Source: Bacteroidota bacterium
GTDB taxonomy: Bacteria > Bacteroidota > Bacteroidia > 2-12-FULL-35-15
Assembly: GCA_003151815.1 (NCBI GenBank)
Contig: PLYN01000054.1
Span: forward strand, 9,780-65,623
Direction: 5' to 3'
DNA length: 55,844 nucleotides
Part shown: one piece after another, positions 42,968-49,797 of the stretch
Position numbering within the stretch: position 1 is the stretch's first letter
How the letters are laid out: every line of letters starts with the position of its first letter
The notes under the pieces: generated by a model
Told to the model about the DNA's origin: nothing
Seen by the model: only the letters and a program-made list of their open reading frames with translations
Databases searched by the model: none
Made by a program: the position numbers and the translations under genes

Positions 42968-45900
42968 TTATTTCCCATTTTTATTGATAAGTTCCTTAAT
43001 AGAAATTATTTCTCCATTATTTATCACTATAACGAATGGACCTTTAAGTCCTCTTTGTTCTATTGCAGTTCTGGCATTTGACGCAGCTTCATAAGTATTA
43101 TAATAGCCGATAAAATATTTTGTTAGTCCATCTTTTTCATCTTTATACGATTCCACTTCAAGATCCAACTTCAATACTTCCGCTAAAATATTTTTTGGTA
43201 AACCTGTAGTATATGCACCAATTTGAATTGTATAAACTGTTTTATCTACAAATTTAGCAAGGTCACTTTTTGTAATCTTACTCGCTTCAATCCTTGCAAG
43301 GTCATTAGCTGATATTTTTGCTCCCGGCTTAATTTTTCCGGTTAACACATTTATTAACGAATCCATTTGCGCCCAATTTTTATCCTTATCTGTATTGCTT
43401 CTATTTCCATTTCCTTCATCTGCCTTAACCGGTCCTACCAATGTTTTTATATTTTTAACAGCCTCCATTTTTTTGTTAACTCGTTTTATAGAATCCATTT
43501 GCGCCAAATTTTTATCCTTATCAACATTACTTACATTTCCTTTGCCTTTATCTGCATTAACTTGTCCTTCGAATGTTTTTAAATTTTCAACAGCTTCCAT
43601 TTGTTTGTTAGCTAGTTTTATAGAATCCTCTTGATGACGTTTATTCGTCAATGCTAACATCATCCTAAGTGTATCTGAAACTTCTGATGGGTTTGTTACT
43701 TTCAGTTGCTGTTGTTGTTTAATGATATCTTTCTTTTCAGCAAGTATAGATAGGCTGTCCGGGTTAGAAATAAGTTGTTTTTCAAGAACAGATTTAGTAG
43801 TTCTTCTCACTTTAGATTGAACTATAAATTTCAAGCCATCAACAACATCTCCATCAATACCGCTTTTTATAGTAAACGGAAGATCTGCCGGGCTGGATGT
43901 CATTTGCAATTGATTCAACTGCGCCGAGTCAATTTTTGCATAATAGGAACCGGGCAACAAACCTAAAAAACTAAAATAACCATCCGACTCGGTTAGTGTT
44001 TTATTAACTAATACTGAATCGTTATTATAAAAGCAAACTGAAATACGTCCCAATCCCGTATTTTCGTATTTTCTTTTTATGTAAACTGTGCCGGAAGCTT
44101 CACCAACAATTGATATGGGAATTTCAATCAATTTTAGCTTATTTGATTCAATGGCAATATACATTTTTGGTTTTTTAATTCTCCATGCAATATTTTCAAA
44201 ATTATTCCCATCAAGTTCCACAAAATAGTTAGTAAATGGCTCCAAACCCAAAATAACGATAGTGGTATCCTCCTTACTGATTTTTTGACTTCCTCCTCCA
44301 CTCATCATAACATTAAGCCCACTAACCTTCGGTTCATTTTTATCTTTTATGCCATTATTATTAATATCCAGGAATGGTAAAAACATAAGTCCTCCTCTGC
44401 CTACATTTGTATTTACATTTTTATCGAGATAATTTATTTCCGGCTGATATACCAAACTACCGCTGGCATACTCGGTAAGCGAATTTATACCATTACTTTG
44501 CGTAGCATTGAAACCTACCCGAGCAAAAGAAAAATTGTATCTAAAGCCAATTTGGTAAAAGGTATATTGAGTAATGATGTTGTGCTGATACGTTGCGACA
44601 ATAGTGCCATATTTAATAAAATGTTTTTCTAAAACACACTTAACAATACTAGTTTTGTTAAGTAAATAATCAAATCTTATTTGAGGCGTAAAAAGAATGC
44701 CTGCAGGAAGTGTAGTTGATAATGCAACATCACTGTAAAATGAGGTATTCAAATTATTAATAATATATGCCAAGGTTGTTAAACTTAAACTTACTCCATG
44801 AGTAGCCCCCGACAGCAGGAATTCAGGGATAGTGTATTTTGTTGGCGGCAATTCTACGCCGGGGAGTTGAATAAAATTCTGGCTAAGAGTAAATCGTGAT
44901 AAAGCTGAAATGGCTTGAATGTGGAACGGTTTCGAAATCATCACTCTTCTTTCTTCACTATAGTTCACGCTTATTGCCTGCTGTCCCGGATTGTATTTAC
45001 TATAATACAGTTCCATCTGAAAGTTAGAGGGCAAACGATAATTCAATAAACCTTTATATCTTACCCCATAAATATACTCTCCATTGAAAAGCGCGTTGGC
45101 CGGTAATCGTATCGAAGTATTTAAAAATACAATGTTTTTACCTGTTATAATGGAAGAGTTATACTCTAACCCTCCGCCAACGGTAATGGTTTTTGTTAAT
45201 CCATAATTTAATCGTGCCTGCCCGAATAAACTGTTTTTATTGTCTTCGATAATTCCTGAACTTACTTTATATTGTAATTCTTTTGGTGGTAGAAAGGTAA
45301 ATGGGATACTGAAACTTTGTTTTGACGTTTGTTCTTCGCCCCAAGGTCCAAAGTAACGCAGCGTAACATTCGTACTTCCATAAATAAGGGGCACATTAAA
45401 AGTAAAGAAACCCGATGCATCCGCTTTTACATAATCAATTAATGTATTATTCACATAGAGTTCCACCGTCCAATTTGGTTGTGTATAATTGCTCAATGTG
45501 TAAGTACCAAACGATTTTTTGTTAACAGTTGGTGCATTGGTAAATTGTATGCCTACAACAGGATTAAAAATAGATGAAATTGAATTGGCGGCAATTTTAC
45601 CCAGCATAAGCTGTTTCAAGGCTTGATTGTCATTATTAGCATATCGCCATAGGTAATATTGTTGTTTTTCCGTAAAAGGTTGATGAGTATTATACAAAAG
45701 TGAAGTGTTTAATTCCCCGCCGGCTAAAATAGCGCCAAGGCCTAATTGGAGTCTTGTATTGCTTAAACCATTCTCTGTCTGAGTTGCATTTATAGACCAA
45801 TCAGCCATTCCAAAATGAAACAGAGGATATTTTCTGGTGATGGTTGTATCAGCTTTCATCACACCTCTTAAGCGATCAAGGTTGGCATGCATTTGTTCCA

Positions 45901-46480
45901 ATCTCATCTCTCGAATTGCCGGAAGTTCTATTTCGGATTTTAATGATACAGTGAGGGTTCGGAAGTTAAAATTGCATTTTAAACCAAAAATCTGGTCGAA
46001 ATATTTTGATTTAAGATATAAGTTTGTTTCAGAAACAATAAAATCAGAGGGACGAAGGGAATAGGTCTTCCCCTGATATATGATGAGGTTATTTGCTCTA
46101 TCAATTTGGTAAGTGTTTTGTGAGTTTATAAAAAAGCCTGATACCATATCAAATCCGTTACCCGGAATTGCTCTGATCTTCAAAAAATTGAAAACATCAA
46201 CTACCGGAAGATAGATATCCTGACCTTGGATTGCTGCCGATATTTCATAAGTACCTAAGTCTTTTACGTAAAGCAATACTGATACTTCGTCTATTGCAAG
46301 TGGCATTTCAGGATCTATAGGATCTATAATTTCCGCTGATGATTTTGAAGGTATAATAAAAAACGACAGAAAAATAACAAAGAGAAAGAATCCCCTCAAA
46401 ACTCCCAACACTTCTCTAAATGCAGAAAGGAAAAAAGCTATAGGTATTTTTATAAATTGAATTTGTAGCTCTGTATCCAT
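42968..46480 (-). CDS. Usher-like outer-membrane protein with C-terminal SPOR domain
   Basis: A 1170-residue protein. After a hydrophobic export segment comes an N-terminal usher-like domain (TYEISAAIQGQDIYLPVVDV). A large barrel follows with a middle region like usher plugs (NWTVELYVNNTLIDYVKADA, SGFFTFNVPLIYGSTNVTLR, YFGPWGEEQ). After the barrel there are an SdrD/carboxypeptidase-regulatory-like domain (VSGLNVMMSGGGSQ, DGYFSFLGLLPGSYYAKID), two tandem 44-residue Lys/Asp-rich repeats and a SPOR domain (VYTIQIGAYTTGLPKNILAE). SPOR domains bind denuded septal peptidoglycan. The first ~27 residues may be extra: TTG at 46399 gives a neat signal peptide (MRGFFLFVIFLSFFIIPSKS). The usher role rests on the fold pattern and the chaperone/pilin neighbours. 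Confidence 0.75.
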   Translation of the reverse strand: MDTELQIQFIKIPIAFFLSAFREVLGVLRGFFLFVIFLSFFIIPSKSSAEIIDPIDPEMPLAIDEVSVLLYVKDLGTYEISAAIQGQDIYLPVVDVFNFLKIRAIPGNGFDMVSGFFINSQNTYQIDRANNLIIYQGKTYSLRPSDFIVSETNLYLKSKYFDQIFGLKCNFNFRTLTVSLKSEIELPAIREMRLEQMHANLDRLRGVMKADTTITRKYPLFHFGMADWSINATQTENGLSNTRLQLGLGAILAGGELNTSLLYNTHQPFTEKQQYYLWRYANNDNQALKQLMLGKIAANSISSIFNPVVGIQFTNAPTVNKKSFGTYTLSNYTQPNWTVELYVNNTLIDYVKADASGFFTFNVPLIYGSTNVTLRYFGPWGEEQTSKQSFSIPFTFLPPKELQYKVSSGIIEDNKNSLFGQARLNYGLTKTITVGGGLEYNSSIITGKNIVFLNTSIRLPANALFNGEYIYGVRYKGLLNYRLPSNFQMELYYSKYNPGQQAISVNYSEERRVMISKPFHIQAISALSRFTLSQNFIQLPGVELPPTKYTIPEFLLSGATHGVSLSLTTLAYIINNLNTSFYSDVALSTTLPAGILFTPQIRFDYLLNKTSIVKCVLEKHFIKYGTIVATYQHNIITQYTFYQIGFRYNFSFARVGFNATQSNGINSLTEYASGSLVYQPEINYLDKNVNTNVGRGGLMFLPFLDINNNGIKDKNEPKVSGLNVMMSGGGSQKISKEDTTIVILGLEPFTNYFVELDGNNFENIAWRIKKPKMYIAIESNKLKLIEIPISIVGEASGTVYIKRKYENTGLGRISVCFYNNDSVLVNKTLTESDGYFSFLGLLPGSYYAKIDSAQLNQLQMTSSPADLPFTIKSGIDGDVVDGLKFIVQSKVRRTTKSVLEKQLISNPDSLSILAEKKDIIKQQQQLKVTNPSEVSDTLRMMLALTNKRHQEDSIKLANKQMEAVENLKTFEGQVNADKGKGNVSNVDKDKNLAQMDSIKRVNKKMEAVKNIKTLVGPVKADEGNGNRSNTDKDKNWAQMDSLINVLTGKIKPGAKISANDLARIEASKITKSDLAKFVDKTVYTIQIGAYTTGLPKNILAEVLKLDLEVESYKDEKDGLTKYFIGYYNTYEAASNARTAIEQRGLKGPFVIVINNGEIISIKELINKNGK
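43367..43634 (-). repeat. 132-bp tandem duplication inside the usher-like gene
   Basis: Two 44-codon units (from EDSIKLANKQMEAVENLKTF and MDSIKRVNKKMEAVKNIKTL, each ending DKDKN.AQ) encode the linker before the SPOR domain. The DNA period is 132 bp (TAGAATCC at 43489 and 43621). Confidence 0.8.
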
Positions 46481-46560
46481 ATATTATCCGCCTTACTCTA
46501 CCTTCACGAATGGAAAGTGTTATACCAATACTCAGTAATAATTAGTCCAATAAATTTTAG

Positions 46561-46723
46561 ATTGACTTAAAATATTTAACCATCCCTCCTTTGTCGGGAT
46601 AAACTCTGATACATGGCTTTTAGAGAAGCAAAGCTTCTACATAGGCTATGCGATAAAAATTTATTTCTCTGTCTTATCTTATTTTTCTATGTTACTTATG
46701 TGGTTAAAAATTTAACTATTTTA
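46561..46723. repeat. TTAACCACATAG-family element, right of the usher gene
   Basis: A direct copy of 42809-42949 (shared ATACAT.GCTTTTAGAGAAGC, AGCTTCTACATAGGCTATG). A short unique stretch (CATCCCTCCTTTGTCGGG) replaces part of its left arm. It separates the usher-like gene from the upstream pilin gene. Confidence 0.8.
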
Positions 46724-46748
46724 TTAAGGAGACCTCAGAATGGGCTTA

Positions 46749-47210
46749 TTAATTATAGTTAACAGTAATAGTAAATGGCGCGCCACTTGTGTAAGTGCCC
46801 GGAGTTTGAGCCCCGGGAATATTTAAAGTAGCACCCACTTTTAATTGTTGAGTGCCGGTAACGCTTAATGTTCCTGTTGCTGAAGGTGTACTGGTAAAAG
46901 TATCAACCGTCATATTATTGCCTCCACTGCTGATAGTGCAGCTTAATGGAAGAGTAATCGCATACGTACGATTGGATCCACCGGTAACATCAAAAGAAGC
47001 GGCAGTAACAGTACCGGCAATTGCAGGAAGTGTAACACCGCCTGTTCCAACTCTTGAATCACTTGGGTCTAAAACTACAGTACCTGAGTTAATAACAGCA
47101 ATATTACCAAAACTCATATCTATTGTTTTTGTAATACCAATTGATTGAGATGAAACAACTTCAACAGCTGAAATAAAAAAAAATAATAGTATTAATTTAA
47201 ATTTATCCAT
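46749..47210 (-). CDS. DUF4402-type pilin-like protein, short N-terminus
   Basis: A 153-residue protein with a signal peptide (MDKFKLILLFFFISAVEVVS). The mature part is an all-beta, Gly/Thr-rich DUF4402 domain: ITKTIDMSFGNIAVINSGTV, VTGGSNRTYAITLPLS and C-terminal GAPFTITVNYN. The last strand alternates hydrophobic residues (F, I, V, Y) with Tyr next to last, as in chaperone-usher subunits. It is about 40% like the protein at 48653 by eye but lacks the Ala/Thr-rich N-terminal extension. It may therefore be a tip or initiating subunit; that is inference. Confidence 0.78.
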   Translation of the reverse strand: MDKFKLILLFFFISAVEVVSSQSIGITKTIDMSFGNIAVINSGTVVLDPSDSRVGTGGVTLPAIAGTVTAASFDVTGGSNRTYAITLPLSCTISSGGNNMTVDTFTSTPSATGTLSVTGTQQLKVGATLNIPGAQTPGTYTSGAPFTITVNYN

Positions 47211-47222
47211 AAGCTAAGAGTA

Positions 47223-47440
47223 TGTTTAAATTTTATTTATAAAAATGTTTATGTAAACTCCAGCGCTCATTCTCGACTTCGCTCGAACTGACAGCGCACT
47301 GCTTGTTCTAACGATATGTATGTGTATTGTCAGTTCGAGTAGGGCTTTTTCTGCCCGTATCGAGAACAGGCATAGCTTACATACTTTTCTCGACTTGGTC
47401 TATCCTGAGCTTGTCGAAGGGATCGTGCCTCGCTATTCGA
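47223..47440. repeat. MITE-end-like and CGAACTGACA/GAGCTTGTCGAAGG repeats
   Basis: ATGTTTAAATTTTATTTATA begins a segment related to 13551-13630. TCGAACTGACA, TGTCAGTTCGAGTAG, ATCCTGAGCTTGTCGAAGG and similar palindromic pieces follow. It is non-coding and fills the gap between pilin-like and chaperone genes (47211-47489). Confidence 0.6.
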
Positions 47441-47489
47441 AAAGACAACACACTGAAAGTCCTACATTGTCAGTTCGAATAGGGGTATT

Positions 47490-48485
47490 TCAGCGTAATC
47501 CCAACTCTGCTTCCGCCAATTGAACTCTATTATCTTCTGCCGGTGATAAATAGGTTACAATCAGCTTTCCTTTACTATAATCTATACCTTTTTTTAATTC
47601 TATCTTACATTGCCTTTTTGTTCCAGGTGTATAAACGGCAAATCCATCTACCTCGCCAACTTTAGTTGTTGTGCTGTTTGGCAAAACAAGGTTTACTCTG
47701 ATATCGCCATAAACAGAAATGTTTCCGCTTCTGTTAAAATCTAATTTAAGAACCGGAATAGAGTCGTTTAACTTTTGAAAAGATAAATTTGAAAGGCTAA
47801 CCCTGACTGTGGTATCTCCTTTGCGAATAATAACAGGTATGGAAATTCCATATTCAGGAATTAACTTAACAGATATTGAAGTAGTATCTTTTATACGTTT
47901 GTTTTCTGCTGTTTCACCCAAAGGTTTAACATCAGCTACTGCTCTAATATAGAGGTGAGAGCGGTATTCACCCGGTACCATCTGGTCGGTTTTTTGTAAT
48001 TGTATTTTTATAACTTGCGCTTCGTTTGGTCCTAAAATTACTTTACGCGGGAAAATACGAAGATAAGGGTCGGCAAAAAATTGATTGGAATCGGGCTTTG
48101 TAATATTCTCAAACGCTCCATCTTCTTTCATCCGTATTTGTACAAAGGAAATATTATATCTTGCCGTATCTTTTCCGGTATTGCTTAAATTAATTGATTG
48201 AGACCTTTTTTTGATTCCATCAAAAACTATTCGCATCGGAAAAATAAGCAAATCACCCTGAGCTATTGATGTCATAGAAGAAAGTAATAATGCAATAGGC
48301 AATAAACAAACCGCAAGCTTGTTTTTTAGTTCTCGTTTTTTAAACTTCAGGGCTGTTCCGAATTTTGGTTTTGTAATTGCGAACGCAGTGAAGCAATCTT
48401 TTAAAATTTTTGCCAATATTGAGATTGCTTCGGTCCTGCCTCCCTTGCAATGATGTTCGTTTAAATTTGTAGAACTACCCTTCAT
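47490..48485 (-). CDS. PapD-like periplasmic pilus chaperone
   Basis: The recognisable protein has two Ig-like domains. The first is typical of pili chaperones: LLIFPMRIVFDGIKKRSQSI, NLSNTGKDTARYNISF, FADPYLRIFPRKVILGPNEA and QVIKIQLQKTDQMVPGEYRS. In PapD the corresponding Arg and Lys hold the subunit C-terminus. The ATG at 48485 gives 331 residues, but the first ~45 are encoded by a palindromic repeat (48373-48455) and look acquired. The CTG at 48350 opens a normal signal peptide (KFKKRELKNKLAVCLLPIAL, cleaved after SIAQ), so the original start may lie there. It sits between two pilin-like genes and would stabilise them in the periplasm. Confidence 0.82.
   Translation of the reverse strand: MKGSSTNLNEHHCKGGRTEAISILAKILKDCFTAFAITKPKFGTALKFKKRELKNKLAVCLLPIALLLSSMTSIAQGDLLIFPMRIVFDGIKKRSQSINLSNTGKDTARYNISFVQIRMKEDGAFENITKPDSNQFFADPYLRIFPRKVILGPNEAQVIKIQLQKTDQMVPGEYRSHLYIRAVADVKPLGETAENKRIKDTTSISVKLIPEYGISIPVIIRKGDTTVRVSLSNLSFQKLNDSIPVLKLDFNRSGNISVYGDIRVNLVLPNSTTTKVGEVDGFAVYTPGTKRQCKIELKKGIDYSKGKLIVTYLSPAEDNRVQLAEAELGLR
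48373..48455. repeat. TTGCGA...GAAGCAATCT palindrome in the chaperone 5' end
   Basis: GTAATTGCGAACGCAGTGAA + GCAATCTT on the left pairs with AGATTGCTTCGGTCCTG + CCTCCCTTGCAATGA on the right. Such TTGCGAGG...GAAGCAATCT palindromes are typical intergenic repeats, here translated as the chaperone N-terminus. Confidence 0.65.
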
Positions 48486-48601
48486 TTTATTATGTTTATC
48501 AAATTTTGTTTATAGTATTTTTTACGGAGCTTTTTTTATTGGCATTGAAGATAACAAATGGATACATGTTTCCAAAATATATTTTCAATCTAATAGTAAA
48601 A

Positions 48602-48632
48602 AGAAAACGTCATGCTAATGCATAACGTTTCT
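48602..48632 (-). terminator. Hairpin terminator after the major pilin-like gene
   Basis: AGAAAACGTCATGC and GCATAACGTTTCT pair around TAAT, with one bulge, followed on the minus strand by TTTTT. It begins 21 bp after the pilin-like stop. It would give a short, abundant pilin transcript and limit read-through to the chaperone gene. Confidence 0.6.
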
Positions 48633-48652
48633 TTTTCTTAGTCTATAGTTTA

Positions 48653-49159
48653 TTAGTTATAATTAACTGTAACAGTAAATGGTGTACCACTAACATAAGT
48701 ACCTGGAGATTGACTTCCACCAACATTTAAAGTAGCACCCACAGTTAATGTTTGTGCACCGAGAGTTAAAGCACCGGTTGGTGTAGGAGTACTGGTCCAA
48801 GTATCACATGTCATCGTAATAGCACCACTAGTAAGAGTCGTAGCAGCCGCAGGAAGGGTAATACTATAAGTAGAATTTCCCGATCCAGTAACAGCAAAAG
48901 AAGCAGCGCTAACAGTACCTGTAACACCAGGAAGTGTACAACCACCAGTAGCAACTCTTGTACTTGCAGGTGCTAAAACTACAGTACCAACAGAAGCAGT
49001 TACAGCTATATTACCAAAATTCATGTCAACAGTTTTGGAGATAGCTATTGGTGTAATAATTGTTGCAGTAGCAGTAGCAGTAGCAGATGCTTGTGCAAAA
49101 GTGCTTAAAGTAGATCCAATCATTAAGATTGAGATTGCTGTAATTTTTAGTGTTTTCAT
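48653..49159 (-). CDS. DUF4402-type major pilin-like protein
   Basis: A 168-residue protein with a signal peptide (MKTLKITAISILMIGSTLST, cleaved after FAQ). An N-terminal extension ASATATATATIITPIAISKT has the alternating pattern of a donor strand. The DUF4402 beta-domain (VDMNFGNIAVTASVGTV, VTGSGNSTYSITLPAA) ends GTPFTVTVNYN with penultimate Tyr. The extension plus the complementary C-terminal strand is what donor-strand polymerisation needs. The terminator after it suggests strong separate expression, as for a main structural subunit. Confidence 0.8.
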   Translation of the reverse strand: MKTLKITAISILMIGSTLSTFAQASATATATATIITPIAISKTVDMNFGNIAVTASVGTVVLAPASTRVATGGCTLPGVTGTVSAASFAVTGSGNSTYSITLPAAATTLTSGAITMTCDTWTSTPTPTGALTLGAQTLTVGATLNVGGSQSPGTYVSGTPFTVTVNYN

Positions 49160-49458: not shown

Positions 49459-49797
49459 TTATTGCACTATTATTGTTCCTGTCATCCCGGGGTGAATATT
49501 GCAATGATAATGAACCGTGCCCCCTGTTAAAAATTGGTAGCTAAATGCGGCACCACTACTTAGATTCCCACTATCAAACAACGTTGCATTACTTGTAACC
49601 GTATGCGTAACAGCATCTTTGTTAGTCCACTTAACAATTGTGTTTACCGGTACTGTTATGGAAGCAGGAGTAAAAGCCGTGTTCTGTATGAACACCTCGT
49701 TTGTTCCGGGACTTGCAGGAGTTGAAGATTTTTTACATCCATTAATTACACCGGCTACTATCAAAAGTGCAGATGCCAAGATAATTTTTGTTTTCAT
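49459..49797 (-). CDS. Cupredoxin (plastocyanin-like) lipoprotein
   Basis: A 112-residue blue-copper-type protein with lipobox INGC (Cys21). The cupredoxin fold spans about 33-112. Expected copper ligands are His65 (DAVTHTV), Cys99, His102 and Met105 in HYHCNIHPGM. It should carry electrons or copper at the outer face of the inner membrane or on the outer membrane. It is transcribed alone; its partner is unknown. Confidence 0.9.
   Translation of the reverse strand: MKTKIILASALLIVAGVINGCKKSSTPASPGTNEVFIQNTAFTPASITVPVNTIVKWTNKDAVTHTVTSNATLFDSGNLSSGAAFSYQFLTGGTVHYHCNIHPGMTGTIIVQ

Follow-up and report, generated by a model that had tools for sequence, protein, structure and literature searches.

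A probable chaperone-usher pilus locus with DUF4402 pilins in Bacteroidota, with relatives on proteobacterial plasmids

A cluster of four minus-strand genes in a genome of the Bacteroidota raises the question of whether this phylum builds pili by the chaperone-usher pathway or by an assembly line of its own. The genes lie at positions 42968 to 49159 of a 55,844-nucleotide stretch of DNA (contig PLYN01000054.1 of assembly GCA_003151815.1), referred to here as the window, and an initial annotation had read them as two DUF4402-type pilins, a PapD-like chaperone and an usher-like outer-membrane protein, possibly forming a distinct and undescribed system. The analysis presented here indicates that the four genes very probably make up a full chaperone-usher pilus system of a divergent type. 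The proposal of a distinct assembly line was upheld in part: the gene set is divergent and no description of the clade was found in the open-access literature, but it is a variant of the chaperone-usher pathway that also occurs in Proteobacteria, and is better regarded as a divergent clade of that pathway than as a new kind of assembly line.

The available excerpt of PMC4654587 presents chaperone-usher pili as a proteobacterial trait, apart from archaic representatives that occur in Cyanobacteria and Deinococcus-Thermus. A 2016 census, as excerpted, placed ushers in Proteobacteria, Spirochaetae, Cyanobacteria and Deinococcus-Thermus, with Bacteroidetes not listed (PMC4827864), and the known spread is also given without Bacteroidota in the corresponding parts of PMC10104325, PMC9452303 and PMC4654587. 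The clade would therefore extend the pathway to Bacteroidota, and would give a likely function to DUF4402, on which no paper was found in the open-access literature.

Gene content and predicted folds

All four open reading frames (ORFs) were present in the ORF list of the window, in the transcription order pilA (48653..49159, 168 aa), chaperone (47490..48485, 331 aa), pilB (46749..47210, 153 aa) and usher (42968..46480, 1170 aa). None of the four proteins had a match over cut-off in an NCBIfam scan, and in the genome of origin (76.6% complete) no DUF4402 genes were seen beyond these two, along with a single usher and a single chaperone of this family. Relatives were sought in the GTDB species genomes by means of two short peptide patterns; of the 286 found, 80 were kept, all carrying Bacteroidota names, which together with the window gave the 81 loci compared below.

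The plug and barrel expected of an usher were recovered in the predicted model of the outer-membrane protein, which consists of an N-terminal domain (residues ~64-186), a large barrel (~214-680) closed by a plug (~324-400), the limits of both being deduced from the model, periplasmic C-terminal domains that include SdrD_B (~696-889, from model and Pfam), a linker modelled with low confidence (~892-1039) and a SPOR-like domain (~1081-1159, from Pfam, profile and model). When this model was searched with Foldseek, ranks 1 to 18 were all FimD or PapC (E 3.7e-27 to 1.0e-13). The Pfam matches were to accessory domains only, SdrD_B at 806-853 (E 2.1e-8) and SPOR (PF05036) at 1081-1151 (E 0.0022), the latter below its threshold of 21 bits with a score of 18.7. 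SPOR domains have the order beta-alpha-beta-beta-alpha-beta, and the secondary structure predicted for residues 1081-1154 was E-H-E-E-H-E; in addition, the usher family profile matched the SPOR structure of CwlC (E 9.4e-5) and SPOR was matched by 18 of 42 ushers at E <= 0.01. A SPOR-like, putatively peptidoglycan-binding usher tail appears, from the literature searched, to be a feature new to this clade. Family ushers are currently annotated as hypothetical, SPOR, FtsN/DedD or carboxypeptidase-like proteins, labels that the clade would replace. One usher homologue (P0019) is labelled Candidatus Babeliales, outside Bacteroidota, and may be a binning error. At locus L123, in a genome of another class, FliG-like domains with a weak FliF match are encoded directly after the usher gene (L123:10089-11948).

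The chaperone was likewise predicted to have the two-domain immunoglobulin (Ig) fold of PapD-like proteins, with the superfamily-invariant proline of its first domain (D1). Foldseek ranks 1 to 10 held eight pilus chaperones (CfaA, CsuC, Caf1M, FimC and CupB2 among their names; E from 3.8e-10), with CfaA as the best match, and two WxLIP chains, while CsuC topped the VIA list, tied with classical chaperones. Two residues, P146 and R175, were invariant in the chaperones (R175 in 80/80 aligned sequences), and R175 stands 29 residues after P146, the same spacing as in EcpB. This residue corresponds to the super-conserved strand-F1 arginine of non-classical, that is archaic and alternative, chaperones (Arg89 of CsuC and EcpB), a mark of that group according to the excerpt of PMC4654587; FimC has Leu at this column and three f25 relatives have Trp. 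The protein is thus assigned as a PapD-type periplasmic chaperone of the non-classical kind. The identity of a WxL-interacting protein was ruled out by the pilus-type gene context and the Pro/Arg pair, and a remote kinship with such proteins may nevertheless exist. Most of the aligned relatives lack anything equivalent to the initial ~40 residues of the ORF, the true start of which is probably internal, further downstream; by eye, the DNA at 48370-48485 looks repeat-like. Many chaperones of the family have already been named automatically as molecular chaperone or PapD, and the identification of the chaperone is therefore not new.

Both pilins, as annotated, belong to DUF4402 (PF14352, E 2.1e-28 for PilA and 4.1e-28 for PilB), each as a single domain. 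Their C-termini, PFTVTVNYN and PFTITVNYN, show the alternating strand and penultimate tyrosine that had been noted, and by eye there is no cysteine at the end of either signal peptide, in line with the reported absence of a lipobox. PilA carries, after its signal peptide, an alternating Ala/Thr N-terminal extension, a putative donor strand, so that by sequence pattern it has both a donor strand and the C-terminal, chaperone-binding strand, whereas PilB has the latter only. Counted from the Gln at the predicted cleavage site up to the Phe of the core, the distance is 25 residues in PilA versus 12 in PilB, and in a 29-row pilin alignment the block absent from PilB is the Ala/Thr-rich strand. Across loci, whose pilins were identified by means of a profile built on the two of the window (29/29 sampled also match PF14352), the median distance was 25 for A-type (44/49 parsed) and 19 for B-type pilins (65/75 parsed), medians that include some rows misparsed by the regular expression (A rows of 8 and 12 and the B row of L042). 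Those B-type pilins with distances of 17-19 mostly start in a Pro-rich stretch. A penultimate Tyr was found at the end of 41/49 A-type pilins and of only 14/75 B-type pilins, and is therefore not general for the latter. Cysteine beyond residue 20 was absent from 82/130 pilins; PilA has two and PilB one. The N-terminal donor strand that PilA appears to have and PilB lacks seems, like the usher tail, to be new to this clade as far as the literature goes; PilA is likely the shaft subunit and PilB likely the tip, or first, subunit.

At nine loci (L039, L046, L051, L054, L063, L066, L068, L070 and L076) a DUF4402-type protein has another N-terminus, VVVTGH...AEIVDAASIS or close to it, and no chaperone was present in the DNA fetched for loci of this type.

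Recurrence of the gene set

Co-occurrence of the genes in other genomes was observed at two levels. In 75/81 loci the usher gene is closely preceded by the end of a DUF4402-type gene, and a chaperone was seen in 32/81, once (L038) downstream of the usher. For the 49 loci without a chaperone, the upstream ORF leaves the fetched DNA in 28, the contig ends in 8, and upstream DNA was available in 13 (L011, L021, L027, L039, L051, L054, L063, L065, L066, L068, L070, L074 and L076, with little DNA left in L065). Of 395 genomes from the phylum, 59 were matched by the usher profile (E <= 1e-20) and 43 by the chaperone profile (E <= 1e-8); both matched in 29 genomes, compared to about 6 expected if they were independent, and in 29/29 of these, compared by hand, chaperone and usher shared a contig and lay no more than about 5 kb apart. 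The usher alone was matched in 30 genomes and the chaperone alone in 14. When one usher-only genome (G282) was opened, a chaperone ORF was found beside the usher, and of four chaperone-only genomes opened, three had a nearby usher ORF missed at first, the contig of the fourth ending after the chaperone. Grouping of these genes by chance is therefore excluded by the synteny across loci. The isolates with the gene set include Chitinophaga, Niastella and Daejeonella strains, and the system is thus directly testable in culture.

The same gene set is not confined to one phylum. A tblastn search of plasmids with a distant chaperone and usher found both in seven records, two each from Polaromonas, Novosphingobium and Pseudoalteromonas and one from Sphingopyxis; four Vibrio records also matched, over 32% of the query (E 0.07-0.2). 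Five plasmids were opened, and in all of them one or two DUF4402 genes are followed by the chaperone and then the usher on one strand, with no pilin between chaperone and usher (0/5). The plasmid ushers are annotated as carboxypeptidase-like, SdrD B-like or hypothetical, and no fused SPOR domain was found in the five proteobacterial plasmid ushers scanned; the gene set of Pseudoalteromonas xiamenensis has stand-alone SPOR genes at its flanks. A clade restricted to Bacteroidota is ruled out by these alpha-, beta- and gammaproteobacterial plasmids, and the recurrence of the set in both groups makes it a trans-phylum clade. In a chaperone tree, 13 Bacteroidia rows formed one supported group with the proteobacterial rows outside, giving no sign of a recent transfer between Proteobacteria and Bacteroidia in a tree where 7/25 inner branches were well supported; the places of EcpB and FimC in it are meaningless because their branch lengths were 10. 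On two Polaromonas plasmids (L131 and L135) IS6 transposases are encoded close to the gene set, and the two DUF4402 genes are separated by the gene of one more small protein, of no recognised type.

Several results weigh against the assignment of the locus to the chaperone-usher pathway. The confidence of the usher model was lower in the plug region (pLDDT 56-80). Pfam Usher (PF00577) did not match the window usher at E <= 10, either whole or as residues 200-440, nor did it match any of 42 relative ushers at E <= 0.01, and a sequence link to this family appeared only via distant f25 relatives, below cut-off. Thus, hmmscan of the whole G282 (L127) protein gave no Usher match, while its N-terminal half matched with E 1.9e-5 and the matched stretch alone with 7.8e-6 (25.4 bits versus a cut-off of 27.1); the equivalent piece of the f25 usher L123 gave E 0.018, those of the window usher and seven other relatives gave no match, and one distant usher piece also touched TcfC (E 0.11). 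Throughout the 395 genomes, PF00577 matched at E <= 0.001 in four, none over the cut-off of 27.1 bits and all inside matches of the family. HHalign comparisons with single E. coli proteins gave probabilities under 1% for EcpC and FimD as well as for EcpB and FimC. Searched against the PDB, singly and as profiles, the usher found no usher, only its SPOR tail being matched, and the chaperone found no chaperone, the distant chaperone L128 reaching PapD with an E value of only 1.3. By sequence, DUF4402 found no solved relative in the PDB: a coat protein, the best match at E 0.057, and a match to outer surface protein A were both put down to chance. Pfam Fimbrial matched one of 29 pilins (PilB, E 0.0031), and these sequence searches were uninformative about the incomplete Ig fold expected of a pilin. 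As for linkage, the 13 loci that have upstream DNA and no chaperone, and the 30/59 usher-positive genomes without a chaperone match, count against a strict association.

The profile check that had been proposed was mixed in its outcome. PapD_N (PF00345) did not match the window chaperone, or its D1 piece, at E <= 10, but 62/80 relatives matched at E <= 0.1 and four of eight distant relatives scanned (L128, L131, L132 and L133) passed the cut-off of 23 bits, whereas Usher was reached only below cut-off and in distant relatives. The structural check was favourable on both counts, the two-domain Ig chaperone and the plugged usher barrel being present in the predicted models. Since its sequence relates it only weakly to known ushers, the homology of the window usher rests mainly on its predicted structure.

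Assembly of the fibre and alternative readings

The locus most likely assembles a donor-strand pilus with a PilA shaft and a PilB tip, in which the polymerisation would proceed as follows. The proteins would enter the periplasm via their signal peptides, and the chaperone would bind each DUF4402 pilin by inserting its G1 strand into the open groove, with Arg175, by analogy to CsuC, possibly holding the pilin C-terminus. Complexes of chaperone and pilin would then be taken up by the usher, a plugged barrel of the outer membrane. PilB would enter first and become the tip, since it has no N-terminal strand to give, and PilA subunits would follow, the Ala/Thr-rich strand of each inserting into the subunit ahead to form the shaft. 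The SPOR-like end of the long periplasmic tail of the usher may tether or steer it to peptidoglycan.

In many relatives the usher-proximal pilin has a further neighbour. The position immediately 5' of pilB (or of the usher) is taken by the chaperone in 12 of the 81 loci, including the window, and by another ORF in 52; the remaining 17 have nothing of at least 150 aa, or a contig edge, there. This usually large ORF abuts the pilin and overlaps its longest possible start in 37/52 cases; TIGR04183, the type A signal of the type IX secretion system (T9SS), was matched at E <= 0.01 in 51/52 of the ORF tails, and a lectin-like Laminin_G_3 domain in three of ten large ORFs scanned. A motif PP[RKN] was found in 47/52 PilB proteins encoded downstream of the partner ORF versus 1/12 with the chaperone directly upstream (Fisher p 6e-8; 11 other PilB loci, three with the motif and eight without, were left out of the table), a p value that is only indicative because the motif was chosen post hoc and the loci share ancestry. 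The type IX-signalled partner ORF beside pilB looks, in the literature searched, to be another feature new to this clade; together with the SPOR-tailed usher it would be the most surprising one to a specialist, and the clade would offer a system with a genetic link between chaperone-usher assembly and type IX secretion. A possible but doubtful extension is that the Bacteroidia clade is a hybrid of both pathways, in which a large adhesin, exported by type IX secretion and translated together with PilB, would dock on the tip of the fibre via a Pro-rich segment at the N-terminus of PilB while the usher is tethered to peptidoglycan by its SPOR domain. The genome of the window has 67 matches to T9SS sorting domains. 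The window locus itself has no partner gene, and under the hybrid scheme it would represent a form without the adhesin, with nothing docked on its PilB tip.

The product might also be a non-fimbrial coat or a thin polyadhesin rather than a pilus, such as the F1 antigen or the spore coat made by the Mcu system of Myxococcus. The window encodes no two-domain tip adhesin, PilA and PilB being single-domain proteins, which would suit such a product; the presence of the donor strand in PilA and not in PilB suits an ordered fibre with the tip before the shaft, an argument that is weak since coats can share this order. We consider a coat unlikely. Even less probable is that PilB is a base terminator like FimI or PapH instead of a tip subunit, as might be suggested by its single domain and by the position of its gene next to the usher gene. 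Pilus terminators are known to keep the N-terminal strand and to lack groove access, whereas it is the strand that PilB does not have. Finally, the frequent, overlapping type IX-signalled ORF could mean that the barrel protein is an usher relative repurposed to display type IX cargo with no fibre built, but this is very improbable, given that the window has no such gene, that in 11 further loci pilB immediately follows the chaperone gene and that donor-strand PilA-type pilins are retained in several loci with the cargo gene.

Relation to known systems and neighbouring features

A pilus of the proposed kind would resemble several known systems in part. It shares with the archaic (sigma) pili, Csu of Acinetobacter and CupE of Pseudomonas, the conserved Pro and F1 Arg of the chaperone, the ranking of CsuC mentioned above and, judging by sequence, an N-terminal donor strand in the main pilin; it differs from them in its DUF4402 pilins, which lack the invariant cysteine pair, in the absence from the window of a two-domain tip like CsuE, and in an usher unmatched by Pfam Usher. 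With the alternative (alpha) pili, CFA/I and E. coli Ecp, it has in common CfaA as best structural match and the Pro-Arg spacing of EcpB, but its chaperone and usher sequences gave no significant match to EcpB and EcpC; these pili are reported in PMC4654587 to be restricted to beta- and gammaproteobacteria. In the predicted model the usher barrel and periplasmic C-terminal domains superpose on those of the classical type 1 and P pilus ushers (FimD and PapC), whereas the Leu of FimC at the Arg column and the additional SdrD_B and SPOR-like tail of the window usher set it apart from that group. Type V pili (FimA/Mfa1) of Bacteroidia are also surface fibres of Bacteroidota formed by donor strands, as the window locus would be. 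Their precursors are lipoproteins processed by Rgp, and the portion of PMC5789003 consulted describes no chaperone or usher for P. gingivalis, unlike the window locus, which has no lipobox and has both. The DUF4402 sets of proteobacterial plasmids have the same genes on one strand and homologous chaperone and usher, except that all their pilin genes precede the chaperone while in the window pilB stands between chaperone and usher.

Within the locus, the chaperone and pilB genes are separated by a gap of 279 bp that contains a dispersed repeat (47240-47480), which rules out a T9SS ORF at this place in the window. A 16-base word of this repeat, CTTCGACAAGCTCAGG, has 11 copies in the genome versus none for the reversed control, and the gap is predicted to fold strongly (z -4.9). 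A promoter scan was uninformative, with 43 sites against 40.1 expected. Just 3' of pilA, on the minus strand, a stem-loop and T-rich stretch (48604..48631), with 12 pairs followed by CTTTTT, forms a candidate attenuator or terminator; the fold of 48590-48655 had z = -5.5, and the 9-kb region has nine terminator-like sites compared to 5.4 +/- 2.7 by chance. Such a hairpin with a T-rich tail is as would be expected if pilA transcript were made in excess. Just upstream of pilA, on the same strand, a small cupredoxin-like protein is encoded (49459-49797), the start of which resembles, by eye, a lipoprotein signal.

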